NCBI RefSeq assembly: GCF_038022665.1
Contig: NZ_CP150629.1
Span: 2,400,480 to 2,464,479, forward strand
Source: Methanolobus sp. WCC4
GTDB lineage: Archaea > Halobacteriota > Methanosarcinia > Methanosarcinales > Methanosarcinaceae
DNA: 64,000 nucleotides
Direction of reading: 5' to 3'
The position numbers were made by a program, and so were the translations under genes. A model generated the notes under the pieces. It did no database searches. It was not told the DNA's origin and saw only the letters and a list, made by a program, of their open reading frames with translations. Each line of letters begins with the position of its first letter. The stretch's first letter is position 1. This document shows, in pieces, positions 36,928-64,000 of this stretch.

Positions 36928-38415
36928 CTAGAAATCAAATAACGTCTTCTGAGGTTTTTTAGCAGGCTCTTTTTTCTCTAATATCGGAGTTTTTGAAATT
37001 ACAGCATCATTTTTAGTTACATCTGATGACGGCAATTTATCAAGACTTAGTTGAGAAGGGTCTTTCTTTGTAACGGTCCTTTCAACAAAGAACTCAGGCT
37101 CATCAGCAGGGAAAATATGCTGACGTTTTTCCTGTGCTTCATCATAGACTGCCTGAAGCTTTTTGGTAACCTTCTTAGCTCCCACCAGATAGAGAAACTC
37201 ATCGAGGTCGAGTCCCAGTGTTGCAATAACATCTGTGGCATACTCATCCTGATGCAGGAGTCTTGAATACATACCTGCCACCTCAAGGCGTGAATAACGC
37301 ATTGATTCATTACAATGAGAACCGACCTTTACAGCTATGTTATTACGCATATTCTTCCTGGCCCGCATCTGACCCATCTTACGCCATAGAGAAGGTGGCT
37401 GATACTTCACAAAACCACCACGTACACGAGTCTTTGAGACAACCGTCCCACCGGTCATGAGCATGCCTGCATAGCGCCACATACGATAGTTCTGTCGCCT
37501 GCGCACACGGCCAAGGAACCTGTCGGCACGTGACAGATGAGAATAGCCACTGACGATATCATCCGTAAGTGCCTCTTCACCCTTACCAGTATACTGATGC
37601 GGGAGATTCTCACCGATCCAGTGAATGAGATCCTCCGGGGTTTCATCAAGACCATATGTAGCCTCCAGTGCAGAGGATACATCCTTGCCTTTGAATATCC
37701 TGCCGACAACCTTGAATATAGACTCTTTAGTGTCCCTGTCTGACGTAGATATATCATCGACATCGATTTCCGTGCGGCCCATTGAAACTGCCTGAAGGTC
37801 ATTGACAGCACTTCTGAAGTCCCCGTCTGCAGACCCGGCTATCTTTTCAATGACACCGACACCACACATGATACCTTCCTGCTGAGCGATCCTTTTGAGC
37901 GCAGGGACCATTGAACGAGATTGCACGGAAGCGAATTTCAATTCAAGACATAATGAACGTAATGAAGAAGAGAGACCATAAAGGTCGTTGGCAATAAGCA
38001 CAATAGGCTGATTGGTCTTCTTAACAACATCAATGATAGCACGGGAACCTCCACGGTCACTATTACCATGAAGATTGTCAGCCTCATCAAGTATGATCAG
38101 TCGCTTTGCAGATGCCCCTGTAAGTGTTTGCATAGTGGACGCAGATCCTGCAATCTTAGTGATCACACCTGCGGTCCTCTGGTCACTGGCATTGAGCTCG
38201 ATTACCTCCCAGCCCATATCATTTGCAAGTGCATGTGCAGAAGAGGTCTTTCCGATACCGGCATCACCATGGAGTAATGCAGCCCGCTTATCAGGAGTAC
38301 CATACTCCCACTGCTCACCCCAGTTGCGGAGATCATCTATCACTTTTTTATGACCTACGATATCACCAAGTGTTCCTGGCCGGTATTTCTCTGCCCATTC
38401 CATCTGCACTGTCAT
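36928..38415 (-). CDS. rfcL: Replication factor C large subunit (clamp loader)
   Basis: About 495 residues. AAA+ ATPase that, with RfcS, loads the PCNA sliding clamp. Walker A is [12 protein letters not shown], Walker [10 protein letters not shown], with the sensor and arginine-finger region following. Residues after 330 form the collar domain and a Lys/Pro-rich tail. The protein ends in QKTLFDF, a PIP box that contacts PCNA. ATG 38415 is preferred to the TTG at 38427. Divergent from mtxX. Confidence 0.95.
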
Positions 38416-38502
38416 ATTACTACCCAATATTCAGGAAAAGTAATTAATGTTTGCATCGCTTTGTTTGTTCTGATCGACATTACTGACGGTAGGTATCTTG
38501 CT

Positions 38503-39366
38503 ATGGTATCAAAAAGTACAGAGAGCCTTCTTGGCCTGATAGAGAAAAGGGCATTGAATAATAAGGCAAGAGTTGCCATAGGAGTGCGGAACCCCACCCC
38601 TAAGATGCTTAAGAGCGCGCGGGATGCACACGAAGCAGGTTATGCACATGTGCTGCTGGTAGGCAACAAGAAAGACATAGAGGAAATAGGAACAGACCTT
38701 GAGATCATAGGCACCAATGACCCGGAAAGAACCCTTGGCGACCTCCTAAAGTCAAGATATATAGATGCAGCAGTCAGAGGTACTGCCGGTGCATCACAGA
38801 CACTGGCCCACCTCAAGAAGATATTATGCCAGGAGAATCTGCACAGGATCGCCCTACTCCAGACAAGTGAAGGAGAGCCTTTTTTTATTGCACCCGTAGG
38901 CATTGATGAGGGCAACTCACTTGCAGACAGGATAGCATTCATAAAGCTTGGGGTCGAGTACATCCGCAGGTTTGACATAGAGCCAGTTGTCGGGATCCTT
39001 TCAGGAGGACGAATGGGAGACCTGGGGCGTAACCAGAGGGTCGACCAGACACTTGCTGAAGGAGACTTCATAGTCAACAGGGTCAGAGAGCAGGGCATCG
39101 ATGCAAAACACTACACCATATTGATAGAAGATGCCATACAGGAAGCAAATTTCATACTGGCACCTGACGGAATATCAGGTAACCTCATCTTCAGGACACT
39201 GGTCTTCCTTGGAGGAGGGGACGGGCTTGGAGCACCAATACTTATAGATGACTATGTCTTTGTCGATACATCAAGGGTCGGAGGACATTATACCAAAGCA
39301 ATAATGCTTGCAAGTGCACTTGTAGAAAAGAATGTGGCACAGACAGATGCTGAGGAACAAAAATAA
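38503..39366 (+). CDS. mtxX: Methanogenesis marker protein 4 (MtxX)
   Basis: 287-residue cytoplasmic protein of the MtxX/methanogenesis marker 4 family, distantly related to phosphate acyltransferases and annotated as a putative methyltransferase. Family stretches are [28 protein letters not shown] and [16 protein letters not shown]. The true reaction is unknown, but the family is confined to methanogens and their relatives and supports the assignment of this genome. ATG 38503 begins the alignable part; the frame is open far upstream without similarity. Confidence 0.85.
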
Positions 39367-39451
39367 TTATATCAGGGTGCGCACATCTAATTTAGTGGAC
39401 GGAACTTATTTCTGAATATATCGAATCATTATCAAAAAGGGAATGAACGAC

Positions 39452-40216
39452 ATGGAAGCCATACTGATAAAAGCAGACACCATTGCCTCTGCATGGTCTC
39501 AACTTATCCAGGAGATATACGAAAAAGGTGAGGATCATGAACCGGACTATAAGACAATGACAAAGAGAGTGCATGCCACCATATACATCAAGGATGTCAA
39601 TAACATGCAGGTCAGTCCGGCAGTACCTTTCGGAGAGAATCTGATAAAGAAGTACAAGGAAGAGCTTACAGAAGAGTATGCAGACTGGTACGTTTCACTT
39701 TCGGATGATGATAAAAGGAAGTTCGATTACTGTTATGCAAAACAGCTTTTCAGATACGGCGAGACAGCATACAATACACTTCAGGAGAATGTTAGCAACC
39801 TGCGCCCTGGCTCCAGAAGACATGTCGGAGTACTCTGGGAGAATGAGGTCCACATCCCAAAATACGAAGATCAGCCCTGCTGGATAGCCTATAAAGTAGA
39901 ACTCCTGAATGAGACACAGGTAAGGATATACATCCTTTACCGGTCATGGGATGCTTTCGGCGGATTCCCGGCAAACATACCTGCCATAGTAGAAGGATTC
40001 AAGAAGGTCTTCAGAGAACAGGACCTGCCATATGAGATCGAATCACTGATAGCCACCGGATGGGACACACATATCTACGACACAGACCTCCAGTCAGTGG
40101 AGAAGATATTCAAGAATAATGCACTATGCCCCCTATGCAAGTGCATAACACCAAAACATTCATTCATACAGACAACGAAGGGCAAGGCCTGCCCTGAATG
40201 TAAGAAGTCAATGTGA
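39452..40216 (+). CDS. Thymidylate synthase-like protein with C-terminal zinc ribbon
   Basis: 254 residues. The core resembles archaeal thymidylate synthases: paired arginines in GSRRHVGV, a candidate catalytic cysteine in DQPCWIAY, and the late dUMP-site motif RSWDAFGGFPANI. The C-terminus adds about 30 residues with two CxxC pairs (CPLCKC and CPECKK) that form a zinc ribbon absent from classical ThyA. If it acts as a thymidylate synthase it would methylate dUMP, but the active-site context is unlike the usual PPCH. GGGA lies 9 nt before ATG 39452; ATG 39443 is an alternative. A terminator overlaps its stop codon. Confidence 0.65.
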   Translation: MEAILIKADTIASAWSQLIQEIYEKGEDHEPDYKTMTKRVHATIYIKDVNNMQVSPAVPFGENLIKKYKEELTEEYADWYVSLSDDDKRKFDYCYAKQLFRYGETAYNTLQENVSNLRPGSRRHVGVLWENEVHIPKYEDQPCWIAYKVELLNETQVRIYILYRSWDAFGGFPANIPAIVEGFKKVFREQDLPYEIESLIATGWDTHIYDTDLQSVEKIFKNNALCPLCKCITPKHSFIQTTKGKACPECKKSM

Positions 40217-40237: not shown

Positions 40238-40360
40238 TTATCCATTTCCTTTCTTGCAGGACCCACATTTAGCGAGCCATTGCTTTGATATTCTTCACAA
40301 GGTTCATACAGAACCCATAGATTGCATAAGAATCGAAATATAATTCCATTAATTATATAT

Positions 40361-40395
40361 GTATGATATATGCATACAATGGTATGATTCCATAC
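40361..40395. promoter_or_regulatory. Two GTATG-CATAC inverted repeats, candidate operator
   Basis: GTATG-N7-CATAC (40361-40377) and GTATG-N4-CATAC (40382-40395) lie side by side. They follow a TATA-like AATTATATATG at about 40351-40361, so the repeats would cover the transcription start of the RHH protein gene, whose ATG is at 40421 with GGGAGA upstream. Ribbon-helix-helix proteins commonly bind paired short inverted sites, so autorepression is an attractive inference. Confidence 0.5.
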
Positions 40396-40420: not shown

Positions 40421-42475
40421 ATGAAGAGACTTACTATCAGCATGTCTGATGAACTGTTTGATAAACTGGAAGTGATCGAGAACAAGAGCCTGTTCATCAG
40501 AAAACTTGTCGAGAGAGAACTTGACATGTTAGATAATGCTCCGCAGGATGACATTATCCCCTGGACAGACAGGTTCACAACACTCAAAGACGAAGTCATG
40601 ACATTATCCGACAGGATGGAGCTGATAGAGAAGAACTTCTCAGGAATAAATGCGTTGCTTGAGAATCCCCATAACGGAGCAGACGTCCCGAAGACGGAAA
40701 TAGCTCCGGATGAAAGTGAAATTGAAGAAATACCACTTTCAGGACCTGATCATCAAGAAGATATCACAGACATCGGGAATGTAGCCCTAACTGAAGAAGA
40801 AATTACCAATTTCCAGGCCCCTGCTGAAGAAATTAAACCACCTGAAAATGAAATTGCGGAATCTATAGAAGCACCTGCGATAGAAGCAATAACTGCAGAG
40901 GCAGAAGTACCCACACATGCAGGAGAAACAATAGCAGACAATCTTTCCGTAGTAGAGAACGAAACTGCGATATCAACTTCTGAAGAAAAAGAAGAACAGC
41001 ATCCAATGAAACTATCAGAGATGGTTGCTGAGAAGATAGAGAAGCAGGAGCAGAAAATACCTACACCGGAAAATGATACTTTTACAATACCTGAAGTTGC
41101 GATACCGGAACAACCTGACGACACTGCAAGCTTTGTAATGCCGGAAGTGAAACCACCAGAGCAGGCAAATGAAGTACCAGGATTTGAAATGCCGGAAGTG
41201 AAAACACCGGAACAAACAAATGAAGTACCAGAATTTGAAATGCCAGAAGTGAAACCACCGGAGCAGGAAAACGAAGTAACAGCATTCGAAATGCCGGAAC
41301 TGGAGCCAACGGAGCAGGAAAACGAAGTACCGGGATTTGCGATGCCGGAACTGGAGCTACCAGAGCAGGTAAACGAAGTACCAGGATTTACGATGCCGGA
41401 ACTGGAGCCAACAGAGCAGGTAAACGAAGTACCAGGATTTGCGATGCCGGAACTGGAGCCAACAGAGCAGGTAAACGAAGTACCAGGATTTGCGATGCCG
41501 GAACTGGAGCCAACAGAGCAGGTAAACGAAGTACCAGGATTTGCGATGCCGGAAATGAAGCCACCGGAGCAGGCAAATGAAGTACCAGGGTTTGCGATGC
41601 CGGAACTGGAGCCAACGGAACAGGCAAATGAAGTACCAGGGTTTGCGATGCCAGAACTGGAGCCACCAGAACAGGCAAACGAAATACCAGGGTTTGAGAT
41701 GCCGGAACTAAAGCCACCAGAGCAAGCAAACGAAGTACCTGGGTTTGCGATGCCAGAACTGAAGCCACCAGAGCAGGCAAACGAAGTACCAGGATTTGAA
41801 ATGCCGGAAATGAAGCCACCAGAACAGGCAAACGAAATACCAGGGTTTGAGATGCCGGAACTAAAGCCACCAGAGCAAGCAAACGAAGTACCTGGGTTTG
41901 CGATGCCAGAACTGAAGCCACCAGAGCAGGCAAATGAAGTACCAGGGTTTGCGATGCCAGAACTGAAACCACCGGAGCAAGCAAACGAAGTGCCAGGATT
42001 TGAAATGCCGGAACTGAAACCACCGGAGCAAGCAAACGAAATGCCGGGATTTGAAATGCCGGAACTGAAGCCACCGGAACAGGCAAATGAAGTACCAGGG
42101 TTTGCGATGCCAGAGTTGAATACACCCAGGGAAATGCCAGTATTCAGCCCGTCCGAACCACAGCAACCTCAGGAACAAGCAGGATTCCCTCCGGCAATGG
42201 GAACGGAGAGACAGACGATCCCACAACAAGCAGTAATACCACCTTCTACACCTGCCAGCGAACAGGGAGCTGGAACAAAACCGGACAAACTTGAAACTAA
42301 CATATTGATGTACATGCCACGTGGCGCAAAGGTAAAGAAAGATATCATTAAAAGTCTTGTATCACGCCAGTTCAGTCAGGAAGAGATCGACCGGAAGATA
42401 CAGGAACTTATAGCCAGAGAAGTGCTTGTGCTCGTTCAGGAAGACGGCGTAGAACAACTACACAGGCTCAAATAG
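40421..42475 (+). CDS. RHH protein with nineteen 17-residue repeats and C-terminal winged helix
   Basis: 684 residues, apparently cytoplasmic. Residues 1-37 form a ribbon-helix-helix domain (RLTISMSDELFDKLE). A short helical stretch (TTLKDEVMTLSDRMELIEKNF) and a very acidic disordered region follow to about 240. Residues 245-567 are nineteen copies of a 17-residue unit, consensus PPEQANEVPGFAMPELK. The last 60 residues, after a Gln/Pro-rich spacer, resemble a winged helix (GAKVKKDIIKSLVSRQ, IQELIAREVLVLVQEDG). Two DNA-binding-type ends joined by a long Pro/Glu linker suggest an architectural or bridging factor; this is inference. The neighbouring zinc-ribbon gene is convergent by one base. 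Confidence 0.8.
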   Translation: MKRLTISMSDELFDKLEVIENKSLFIRKLVERELDMLDNAPQDDIIPWTDRFTTLKDEVMTLSDRMELIEKNFSGINALLENPHNGADVPKTEIAPDESEIEEIPLSGPDHQEDITDIGNVALTEEEITNFQAPAEEIKPPENEIAESIEAPAIEAITAEAEVPTHAGETIADNLSVVENETAISTSEEKEEQHPMKLSEMVAEKIEKQEQKIPTPENDTFTIPEVAIPEQPDDTASFVMPEVKPPEQANEVPGFEMPEVKTPEQTNEVPEFEMPEVKPPEQENEVTAFEMPELEPTEQENEVPGFAMPELELPEQVNEVPGFTMPELEPTEQVNEVPGFAMPELEPTEQVNEVPGFAMPELEPTEQVNEVPGFAMPEMKPPEQANEVPGFAMPELEPTEQANEVPGFAMPELEPPEQANEIPGFEMPELKPPEQANEVPGFAMPELKPPEQANEVPGFEMPEMKPPEQANEIPGFEMPELKPPEQANEVPGFAMPELKPPEQANEVPGFAMPELKPPEQANEVPGFEMPELKPPEQANEMPGFEMPELKPPEQANEVPGFAMPELNTPREMPVFSPSEPQQPQEQAGFPPAMGTERQTIPQQAVIPPSTPASEQGAGTKPDKLETNILMYMPRGAKVKKDIIKSLVSRQFSQEEIDRKIQELIAREVLVLVQEDGVEQLHRLK
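41153..42121 (+). repeat. Tandem array of nineteen 51-bp coding repeats
   Basis: Nineteen in-frame units of exactly 51 bp encode PPEQANEVPGFAMPELK and variants; a degenerate unit precedes them. Units 11-12 and 14-15 (starting about 41663 and 41816, 153 bp apart) are almost identical at nucleotide level, with the same rare choices, which points to a recent three-unit duplication. Confidence 0.95.
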
Positions 42476-42476
42476 A

Positions 42477-42653
42477 TCAGACAAGTCCGGTCCTTTCCGA
42501 CGACATCTCTGACAGAGGATTACCCGGTGAGCACTGGATGCAAACACCTCTTGAATGATCATAGCACTTATTGCAGACCAGCCTGCCGCATATAGCACAT
42601 GTATTCAGCTTCCCGACGGAACCACATATGGAACAAATACCAGCTCTTTCCAT
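42477..42653 (-). CDS. Small zinc-ribbon protein
   Basis: 58 residues from ATG 42653 (70 from ATG 42689). Four cysteine pairs are present: CSIC, CAIC, CNKC and CIQC, the pattern of a double zinc ribbon or a cross-brace such as a B-box-like module. No other domain. It ends one base from the stop of the repeat protein in convergent orientation. It may be a protein- or nucleic-acid-binding module; function unknown. Confidence 0.7.
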   Translation of the reverse strand: MERAGICSICGSVGKLNTCAICGRLVCNKCYDHSRGVCIQCSPGNPLSEMSSERTGLV

Positions 42654-42770
42654 TGGGTAATACTCAGTTGATACGGTTAAAATAACCATCGGTTATTATT
42701 CACAGAAACAAGATAATTAAAGCAAAAAAGATAGAAGAACAGGCCAACCAGAGTCCTGCTCCATTCCACA

Positions 42771-44432: not shown

Positions 44433-44979
44433 TAGAAAACCTCGTTTACTGCTATACTTAAGCTACTATACGTAATAGAGAAAGAGGTATATAATAAATG
44501 CGTGCTACCGGGCAATTTCACAGAGGACAGGCAATCACTATGAAACGTATTCAGCCCATATGCGTAATAATTTACATGACCATAAAGATCAAATGAACCA
44601 TCATACACATGCATACGAAATAATATTACAAATTCATATTTATTCATACGTATGATAATAGATACTCGTGTATGATATGCCCATATGAAAAAAAAAGTAA
44701 CCATTAGTTTAAATATTGCATATCGCATTCCCCTAATAAATCAAATCCAAATCCATCCAAAACACTGCGTTTCAAGGAATAGTGGCTGAATTAGACACTA
44801 AATGGACAAAACCACATGCCACATAATATAAAAAGATCATAAAAATCAGAATATAGTCCAGAAACAGCAACATCAAACAATACAGCAAGTGATGAATGAA
44901 AGAATATATTCATATATAGCTATATAATAATGTATAGATATTAATTAAAATAGAATAAATAATACATATTTTACTGAAT
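44433..44979. other. Gene-free AT-rich interval
   Basis: 547 nt between divergent ilvD and the radical SAM gene. A TATA element for each is visible (44487-44498 for ilvD, minus; TATATAGCTATATAATAATG at about 44912-44931 for the plus gene). Two copies of GTATGATA (44648-44655 and 44671-44678) resemble the half-sites near 40.37 kb. No gene is supported. Confidence 0.5.
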
Positions 44980-62991: not shown

Positions 62992-63810
62992 TTAACCCAG
63001 ACTGCATACTCCATCCCCATGAAGATAGTTCTCAGATTCGATATCTGTTATCGAAGGCTTGTCACCGCATACAGGGCATGAAGGATTCTTACGGACCTTG
63101 ATCTCATCAAAGGACATGTTCAATGCATCATAGAACAAGAGCCTCCCTTTCAGTATCTCGCCAATTCCCAGCAAGTACTTGATAACCTCAGTGGCCTGAA
63201 TGGAACCGATTACACCAGGCAGTACACCGAGAACGCCGGCTTCCTGGCAACTGGGAACCATGTCTGCAGGAGGAGCATCTTCGAAAAGGCATCTGTAGCA
63301 AGGGCCATCATCCGGGACTATTGTCATGACCTGACCCTCAAAACGGAAAATACTGCCATGAGAAAGTGGTTTCTTTGCAAGCACACAGGCATCATTGACC
63401 AGATAACGGGTGGCAAAGTTGTCAGAGCCATCCACAACGATATCATAGTCCTTTATGATATCAAGAATATTATCAGGACTTATCCTCTCGTTATAGATGA
63501 TGACATCCACATCAGGATTTAGTCCTTCAACATATCTTTTTGCAGAATCGACCTTTGACATGGACACATTTCCACCATGTATTACCTGCCTCTGAAGGTT
63601 ACTGAGGTCCACAACGTCATCATCAACAATGCCAATGGCCCCTATCCCGGCAGCAGCCAGGTATTGAATAACAGGAGAACCAAGCCCACCTGCACCAATA
63701 CAGAGAACCTTTGAAGATAACAGTTTCTGCTGTCCCGTTCCGCCTACTTCCTGTAGTATGATATGTCTTGAATAACGATGGATCTGCTCTTCAGTGAATT
63801 CGTTTATCAT
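62992..63810 (-). CDS. ThiF/MoeB-type adenylyltransferase (E1-like)
   Basis: 272 residues. Adenylates the C-terminal glycine of a ubiquitin-like sulfur carrier (ThiS, MoaD or SAMP). The nucleotide motif is GAGGLGSPVIQYLA, with the Arg in NLQRQ, Asp in DGSDN, and CxxC pairs in CYRC and CPVC for the zinc. The catalytic cysteine candidate is in SCQEAGVLG. ATG 63810 has AGGAAGG about 9 nt upstream. MoeB, ThiF and the archaeal UbaA cannot be told apart. Confidence 0.9.
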   Translation of the reverse strand: MINEFTEEQIHRYSRHIILQEVGGTGQQKLLSSKVLCIGAGGLGSPVIQYLAAAGIGAIGIVDDDVVDLSNLQRQVIHGGNVSMSKVDSAKRYVEGLNPDVDVIIYNERISPDNILDIIKDYDIVVDGSDNFATRYLVNDACVLAKKPLSHGSIFRFEGQVMTIVPDDGPCYRCLFEDAPPADMVPSCQEAGVLGVLPGVIGSIQATEVIKYLLGIGEILKGRLLFYDALNMSFDEIKVRKNPSCPVCGDKPSITDIESENYLHGDGVCSLG

Positions 63811-64000
63811 CTTTGCCTTCCTGAAATGTTGAATTAAAAACTATAAATGTGTATATTAATACATGCCAATTTGCGATATTCTGATAAATAGGCATAGAAA
63901 GAGGCAATATTGTTCGTCATATAAAATATGAAAATATAATACGCTCGTAGAGTGCTGTTTTTTGATTTTATGATTATAACATACACGACACAAAAGCGGC
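63811..64000. other. AT-rich terminal interval
   Basis: 190 nt at the window end, upstream of the thiF-type gene. It presumably holds that gene's promoter; no other feature is visible. Confidence 0.35.

Follow-up and report, generated by a model that had tools for sequence, protein, structure and literature searches.

A ribbon-helix-helix protein with a 17-residue repeat linker and a winged-helix end in Methanolobus, and a predicted operator at its own promoter

The window, that is, the whole 64,000-nucleotide stretch of contig NZ_CP150629.1 of Methanolobus sp. WCC4 analysed here, contains a 684-residue open reading frame with an ATG start whose product joins a ribbon-helix-helix (RHH) domain, a coiled coil, an acidic linker with tandem repeats and a winged helix (WH). 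We refer to it as the RHH-repeat-WH gene; the features of the locus are listed in Table 1. The gene order in most genomes is rfcL (reverse strand), mtxX, X, the RHH-repeat-WH gene (all forward) and ilvD (reverse). The position X is occupied by mtxA-mtxH, which encode homologues of MtrA and MtrH, in genera g2, g7, g10, g12 and g14, whereas the window's genus (g1) and g11 have a gene resembling thymidylate synthase there, and mtxX is the only mtx gene left in these two. The true start of mtxX is probably downstream of position 38350. A 70-residue zinc-finger protein with weak similarity to prokaryotic RING families is encoded at 42477–42689 on the reverse strand, convergent with the repeat gene, an arrangement seen in several species.

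Table 1. Features of the RHH-repeat-WH locus, in coordinates of the window
Feature	Coordinates	Strand	Basis
mtxX (methanogenesis marker Mmp4)	38350..39366	+	TIGR03270 over cut-off
Thymidylate-synthase-like protein, C-terminal zinc ribbon, PCW and GWDTHIY motifs	39443..40216	+	TIGR03283 below cut-off
TATA-box-like TTATATA, directly 5' of the palindrome	40353..40359	+	Sequence; nearly invariant in 23 stacked promoters
Predicted operator TGTATGATATATGCATACA	40360..40378	+	Genus-wide conservation, shuffles
Half-site GTATGA, the third in the predicted operator	40382..40387	+	CATACA-N3-(G/A)TATG in most genus orthologues and in g14/g2
CDS: RHH, coiled coil, acidic linker carrying 19 repeats of 17 residues, winged helix	40421..42475	+	Single copy, orthologues
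RHH domain, residues 1-38	40421..40534	+	AlphaFold2 helices 10-17 and 22-38; fold matches; weak NikR and RHH_1 profile matches
Predicted coiled-coil helix, residues 48-76	40562..40648	+	AlphaFold2 helix; PDB sequence matches there are coiled coils
Linker motif MKLSEMVAEKI, residues 196-206	41006..41038	+	Shared by many genus orthologues
19 complete 17-residue units, consensus MPELKPPEQANEVPGF(A/E), residues 240-562	41138..42106	+	pS 0.45, pN 0.12
Winged-helix domain, residues 620-684	42278..42472	+	AlphaFold2 pLDDT 94.8; Z 10.3 to MCM5 WH, 9.9 to Pyrococcus Rpa2 WH

The tandem array is far above chance, with a 51-bp period repeated 19.1 times at 41138–42111, 88% matches and no indels according to Tandem Repeats Finder. 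The preliminary description of this DNA had counted nineteen uninterrupted 17-residue units, and both the count and the placement are correct. One degenerate unit (IPEVAIPEQPDDTASFV, residues 223–239) precedes the array and a partial MPEL follows it. The linker carries a net charge of about −102 and is predicted to be disordered from its charge and hydropathy. Each of the 27 genomes of the genus has exactly one copy of the gene. The presence of both ends in 27 of 27 species and the syntenic locus rule out an artefact or a pseudogene; a few copies are split, and these are found at contig ends or at stretches of N. A mobile-element or plasmid gene is likewise ruled out by the fixed synteny, and a tblastn search of plasmids gave nothing better than matches of 21–25% to the repeat part.

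Structures of both ends were predicted from 25-member alignments. The N-terminus, previously read as an RHH domain, has the RHH pattern MKRLTISMSDELFDKLE...NKSLFIRKLVERELD, and the AlphaFold2 model of the first 78 residues supports this assignment (pLDDT 78.9), with an extended start, helices at 10–17 and 22–38, and a long helix at 48–76. The RHH fold consists of a strand and two helices, and the strand pairs only in the dimer, which explains why the model, built from a single chain, has the two helices after an extended N-terminus and no strand. A single RHH chain that leads into a coiled coil would be expected to look like this. The fold matches are few and of low Z but mostly to RHH proteins, namely ParD, AtaR, the RHH ParB and Reg576. 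At the sequence level, NikR matches residues 1–43 with E 0.19 in a PDB search, and the Pfam family RHH_1 gives a weak match in 2 of 25 members (best E 0.0019), the window's member not being one of them. Neither end reaches a Pfam gathering score, and searches of profile libraries gave no match above the cut-off.

The winged-helix-like end noted previously is confidently modelled (pLDDT 94.8). The last 65 residues form the helix-strand-helix-helix-strand-strand series of a classical winged helix, and the elements (H4–11, E18–20, H21–28, H34–46, E50–55 and E58–63) confirm the alpha-beta-alpha-alpha-beta-beta topology. The fold search returned 204 chains at Z 8 or more. The best is the C-terminal WH of MCM5 (Z 10.3, rmsd 2.1, 63 residues aligned); the WH of Pyrococcus Rpa2 scores Z 9.9 (rmsd 2.0, 61 aligned), and the DNA-binding winged helices of MecI (9.6), BlaI (9.5) and BigR (9.4) are tied with these within 1 Z. 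In a profile search of the PDB the first natural globular domain is Rpa2, with an E of 0.16 that alone is not significant, and the Pfam family MCM5_C (PF21933) is matched in 5 of 25 members, below the gathering score. The MCM5 protein shares the WH topology but has an AAA+ helicase domain that is absent here.

What the WH does bears directly on the earlier suggestion that two DNA-binding folds bridge two DNA sites. In such a model the RHH end would sit on its operator and the WH on a second sequence, or RHH dimers would join two operators, with the linker as a leash spanning the distance. Winged helices commonly bind DNA, the Z-scores of MecI, BlaI and BigR are tied with those of the replication proteins, and the second helix (H2) of the WH is basic. 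However, the third helix (H3) is acidic across the family, with a mean charge of −2.8, the wing is not basic, and the sequence profiles favor the winged helices of Rpa2 and MCM5. Because the domain is closest to the MCM5 and Rpa2 winged helices and its third helix is acidic, we infer that the WH tip more probably docks a protein than serves as a second DNA-binding end.

Between-unit comparisons in the window's array give pS = 0.45 and pN = 0.12, a ratio of 0.28 (0.26 when the frame is chosen automatically). The protein sequence of the repeat is held while silent sites diverge, indicating purifying selection around the core F-x-MPE-L-K. The arrays of other species have ratios of 0.2–0.8, with 0.6–0.8 in several, and gene conversion within arrays can distort such between-unit values. 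The motif of the type MP(E/D)(L/F) recurs at a spacing of 17 residues in 176 intervals, including those in arrays that have decayed to scattered motifs. In g1, g2 and g14 the core recurs with the same 17-residue period while the residues around it turn over, and units vary between species (EVPGFAMPELKPPEQAN, DSGFVMPELKPPEQTNQ, TEFQMPELKPPEQEMAQ) around a shared core. The motif is single or spaced by 31 residues in g11, and g3 has IMPDL in an 18-residue unit. A single PYATLSFPELKIPPELL is among the best-conserved stretches of the otherwise variable linker in g7 and may be akin to the repeat core. One g7 genome, G043 (L098:5764-7695), has an 18-residue unit of unrelated sequence, LVSDSVISPSLPDPLDSP, repeated 17 times in its linker. 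Its nearest relatives lack this unit; by this distribution, the G043 array is a recent, independent array birth.

The preliminary description also proposed a length-adjustable spacer. The length does vary: members of the family have anything from almost no linker to one of about 560 residues. It is the passive role that is weakened. A passive, length-labile spacer would change its repeat number by slippage or unequal crossing-over with little effect, only the ends being of consequence. This would accommodate the 165–200 aa proteins of g10 and of the genome G186, which have almost no linker, as well as the differences in array units between species and the recent expansion of an unrelated unit in G043. 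It is harder to reconcile with a pN/pS of about 0.26 between units of the window's array and with the conservation across genera of the core and its 17-residue spacing (g1, g2 and g14, the motif also in g3 and g11) amid flanks that turn over, and we regard it as unlikely.

The comparison of homologues suggested at the outset finds a repeat linker that varies among relatives and two ends that stay constant. Full-length homologues within the taxonomic family range from 184 to 714 aa. The C-terminal domain was detected in 59 of 112 genomes of this family, in eight genera; among the same 112 genomes it was not found in g13, g5 or g6. A class-wide search yielded one relative outside the family, a 165-aa RHH-coiled-coil-WH protein in G186, which belongs to another order of the class; its gene starts ~10 bp behind mtxH (mtxA-mtxH). 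This homologue without repeats suggests an ancestral protein with just the two domains, into which the repeat linker was introduced afterwards. RHH matches in g6 were considered as orthologues and ruled out, as they lie at a different locus and have no WH. They belong to a different small protein (L166:6985-7434, L167:8745-9203) with an RHH domain, a coiled coil and an aromatic end of the KKWYQFW type. The architecture was initially judged unusual and without a described counterpart, and this assessment holds. No curated family covers the RHH-repeat-WH protein, and no paper on it was found in the open-licence literature; this archaeal family is apparently undescribed.

The promoter of the gene contains a palindrome that we predict to be its operator. 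The exact form TGTATG-N7-CATACA occurs in 20 of the 27 genus genomes, in each of them at one site ~60 bp upstream of the RHH-repeat-WH gene. Only three other exact sites exist in all 27 genomes, compared to four for a control pattern, and in a regulon search sites with one mismatch elsewhere in the genomes are near background. Species that lack the exact palindrome carry an N6 or a one-mismatch version. In all 24 species tested, none of 100 shuffles of the upstream region matched as well. An ungapped stack of 23 promoters contains 1.4–1.6 bits of information per base over the TATA region and the palindrome versus 0.2–0.4 upstream, and the same operator-like site is found in g2 and g14. Repression would be consistent with its location, downstream of the TATA box and ahead of the start codon. 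The palindrome supports the view that the RHH end regulates its own gene with high specificity; that the RHH domain itself would bind it is the simplest reading. On the other hand, the operator might belong to another regulator, and it is absent from g7, g10, g11 and g12. The RHH strand differs in g7 (MKELKIS) and g10 (MRQLKID), both of which lack the predicted operator, yet g11 also lacks it and has the strand MKRLTISMSD as in g1; covariation of strand and operator across these genera is thus incomplete. In G011 (L012, about 20–75 bases upstream of position 1501) the three half-sites are replaced by a row of ~six TGTATG/CATACA-like half-sites.

A nearly unique site beside the gene is also reminiscent of plasmid RHH centromere-binding proteins, which bind beside their own gene, and by analogy the protein could serve in chromosomal partition or anchoring. 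Such a function would be in line with about one site per genome, with the RHH ParB among the fold matches and with half-sites in series, about six in G011. Nevertheless, we consider it extremely improbable, given that the syntenic block contains no ParA-like gene, that the locus is about 0.5–1 Mb from the two Orc1/Cdc6 genes, and that the operator overlaps the promoter, an overlap that autoregulation explains by itself. A centromere near the origin is ruled out by the same distance of 0.5–1 Mb to the Orc1 genes.

A further copy of the palindrome, with 0–2 mismatches, is located in the intergenic region between ilvD and a divergent radical-SAM gene (rSAM) in about half of the species. The window's copy (44669–44687, two mismatches) is possibly a weaker second site. 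These copies differ in position, sequence and presence, and the other half of the species have none. Being only a few kb away, they could provide the second site for DNA bridging, but they are inconstant and the exact operators are nearly unique in each genome. The part of the bridging proposal that stands is the RHH end with a conserved, cognate-looking, near-unique operator; the part that fares poorly is the WH, which resembles those of Rpa2 and MCM5 and has an acidic H3. What speaks positively for bridging comes down to the fold of the WH and to the inconstant copies between ilvD and rSAM; we consider it possible but quite unlikely.

The gene is placed directly behind mtxXAH on the same strand in g2, g7, g10, g12 and g14 (with gaps of 51–90 bp in g2, g7, g10 and g14), and behind mtxAH in G186. 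In the genomes searched, the only MtrH-like copies of the window's genus and g11 are canonical (48–49% identical), whereas the mtxH that other genera have at this position is 66–94% identical. The RHH-repeat-WH gene was kept after the loss of mtxA and mtxH, and genera that lack it keep mtxXAH. Judging by this gene order, the protein is historically tied to the mtx operon and does not depend on mtxA or mtxH.

The same arrangement raises the possibility of a dedicated transcription regulator of the mtx operon, whose WH would contact RNA polymerase or a basal factor and of which the autoregulatory branch alone would be left in the window's genus. Most RHH proteins act as regulators, a promoter has an operator-like site, and in most other genera the gene is co-directional with and directly behind mtxXAH, at gaps of 51–90 bp in g2, g7, g10 and g14 and of 10 bp in G186. 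However, Methanosarcina-like and other genera retain mtxXAH without the gene, the window's genus and g11 retain the gene without mtxA and mtxH, no copy of the operator was found before mtxX in the species compared for upstream sites, and a repressor has no need of a 540-residue repeat leash. We find this explanation very unlikely.

The closest described two-domain archaeal RHH protein is the haloarchaeal CdrL, which combines an RHH_1 N-terminus with a C-terminal double zinc ribbon, occupies one reproducible genomic site by ChIP, at the promoter beside its own gene, regulates cdrS-ftsZ2 and is restricted to Halobacteria (PMC7439475). It resembles the protein described here in having an N-terminal RHH domain and a second domain at the C-terminus, but that domain is a zinc ribbon and there is no repeat linker; the C-terminal domain in the window has no cysteine and models as a WH. 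In archaeal Rpa2 (RPA32) the WH, tethered by a flexible acidic linker, is a bait for partners and docks PolD and primase (PMC11686378). The likeness extends to a DNA-binding core, a flexible acidic linker and a C-terminal docking WH. In contrast, the core of Rpa2 is an OB fold for single-stranded DNA, with neither RHH nor repeats, and its partners are PolD and primase; the present protein matches no OB-fold family and has an RHH domain and a coiled coil at its N-terminus. Regulators of the CopG/NikR/ParD type share the RHH fold and an operator-like site at their own promoter but have neither a WH nor a repeat linker, and their Pfam family RHH_1 is matched weakly here (2 of 25 members). These comparisons can be read as an RHH autoregulator to which a docking module and a motif-amplified leash have been added.

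These results lead us to propose that the protein is a DNA-anchored, autoregulated and self-limiting adaptor with a multivalent acidic leash, a reading to which we assign a probability of about one half. Two chains would dimerize through the RHH domain and the adjoining coiled coil, and one or more dimers would bind the TGTATG/CATACA half-sites of the gene's own promoter, whose anatomy and conservation are clear, and thereby repress it. From this anchor would extend a leash of ~540 residues, strongly acidic (net about −100), rich in proline and glutamate and disordered, along which ~20 evenly spaced F-x-MPE-L-K-x-P-E cores could give a partner many places to dock with low affinity, and at its tip a WH of the MCM5/Rpa2 protein-docking type would presumably engage a partner as well. 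The ancestor could have been an RHH-coiled-coil-WH protein of 165–200 aa inside the operon of the mtx methyltransferase. The window's genus would then have lost mtxA and mtxH; its gene has a promoter of its own, presumably autoregulated, and tandem duplication would have multiplied the docking motif. Several observations weigh against this adaptor. The Z-scores of its WH are within 1 of those of DNA-binding winged helices such as MecI and BigR, the unrelated 18-residue unit of G043 suits a spacer more than a specific motif, and pN/pS, which gene conversion can distort, is 0.6–0.8 in several other species' arrays.

A more far-reaching and quite improbable variant is a multivalent scaffold fixed at one chromosomal locus, in which an RHH domain serves as the anchor on roughly a single operator in each genome, the acidic leash carries ~20 near-identical docking motifs, and a replication-type WH forms the tip. 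If so, many copies of one partner would be gathered around the rfcL-mtxX-ilvD locus; autoregulation would tune the dose of the protein, and the number of repeats its avidity. The family forms a clear evolutionary series, with a repeat-free protein of 165 aa at one end and one of 714 aa and many repeats at the other, and it comes with a predicted near-unique operator. It raises the questions of what role a winged helix of the replication type has when joined to an RHH regulator, and of whether a prokaryotic regulator can have its avidity tuned by amplifying a short motif in tandem.

Two more one-mismatch versions of the palindrome are of interest. One is found ~40 bp before a tspO-like gene in four close relatives (L207:7555, L208:9947, L209:7108 and L210:6447), where it overlaps a TATA-like stretch; it may be a second target or mere TATA overlap. 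The other, TTTATGATTATAACATACA, is at 63967–63985 of the window, upstream of a ThiF/MoeB-like gene (62992–63810, reverse strand).
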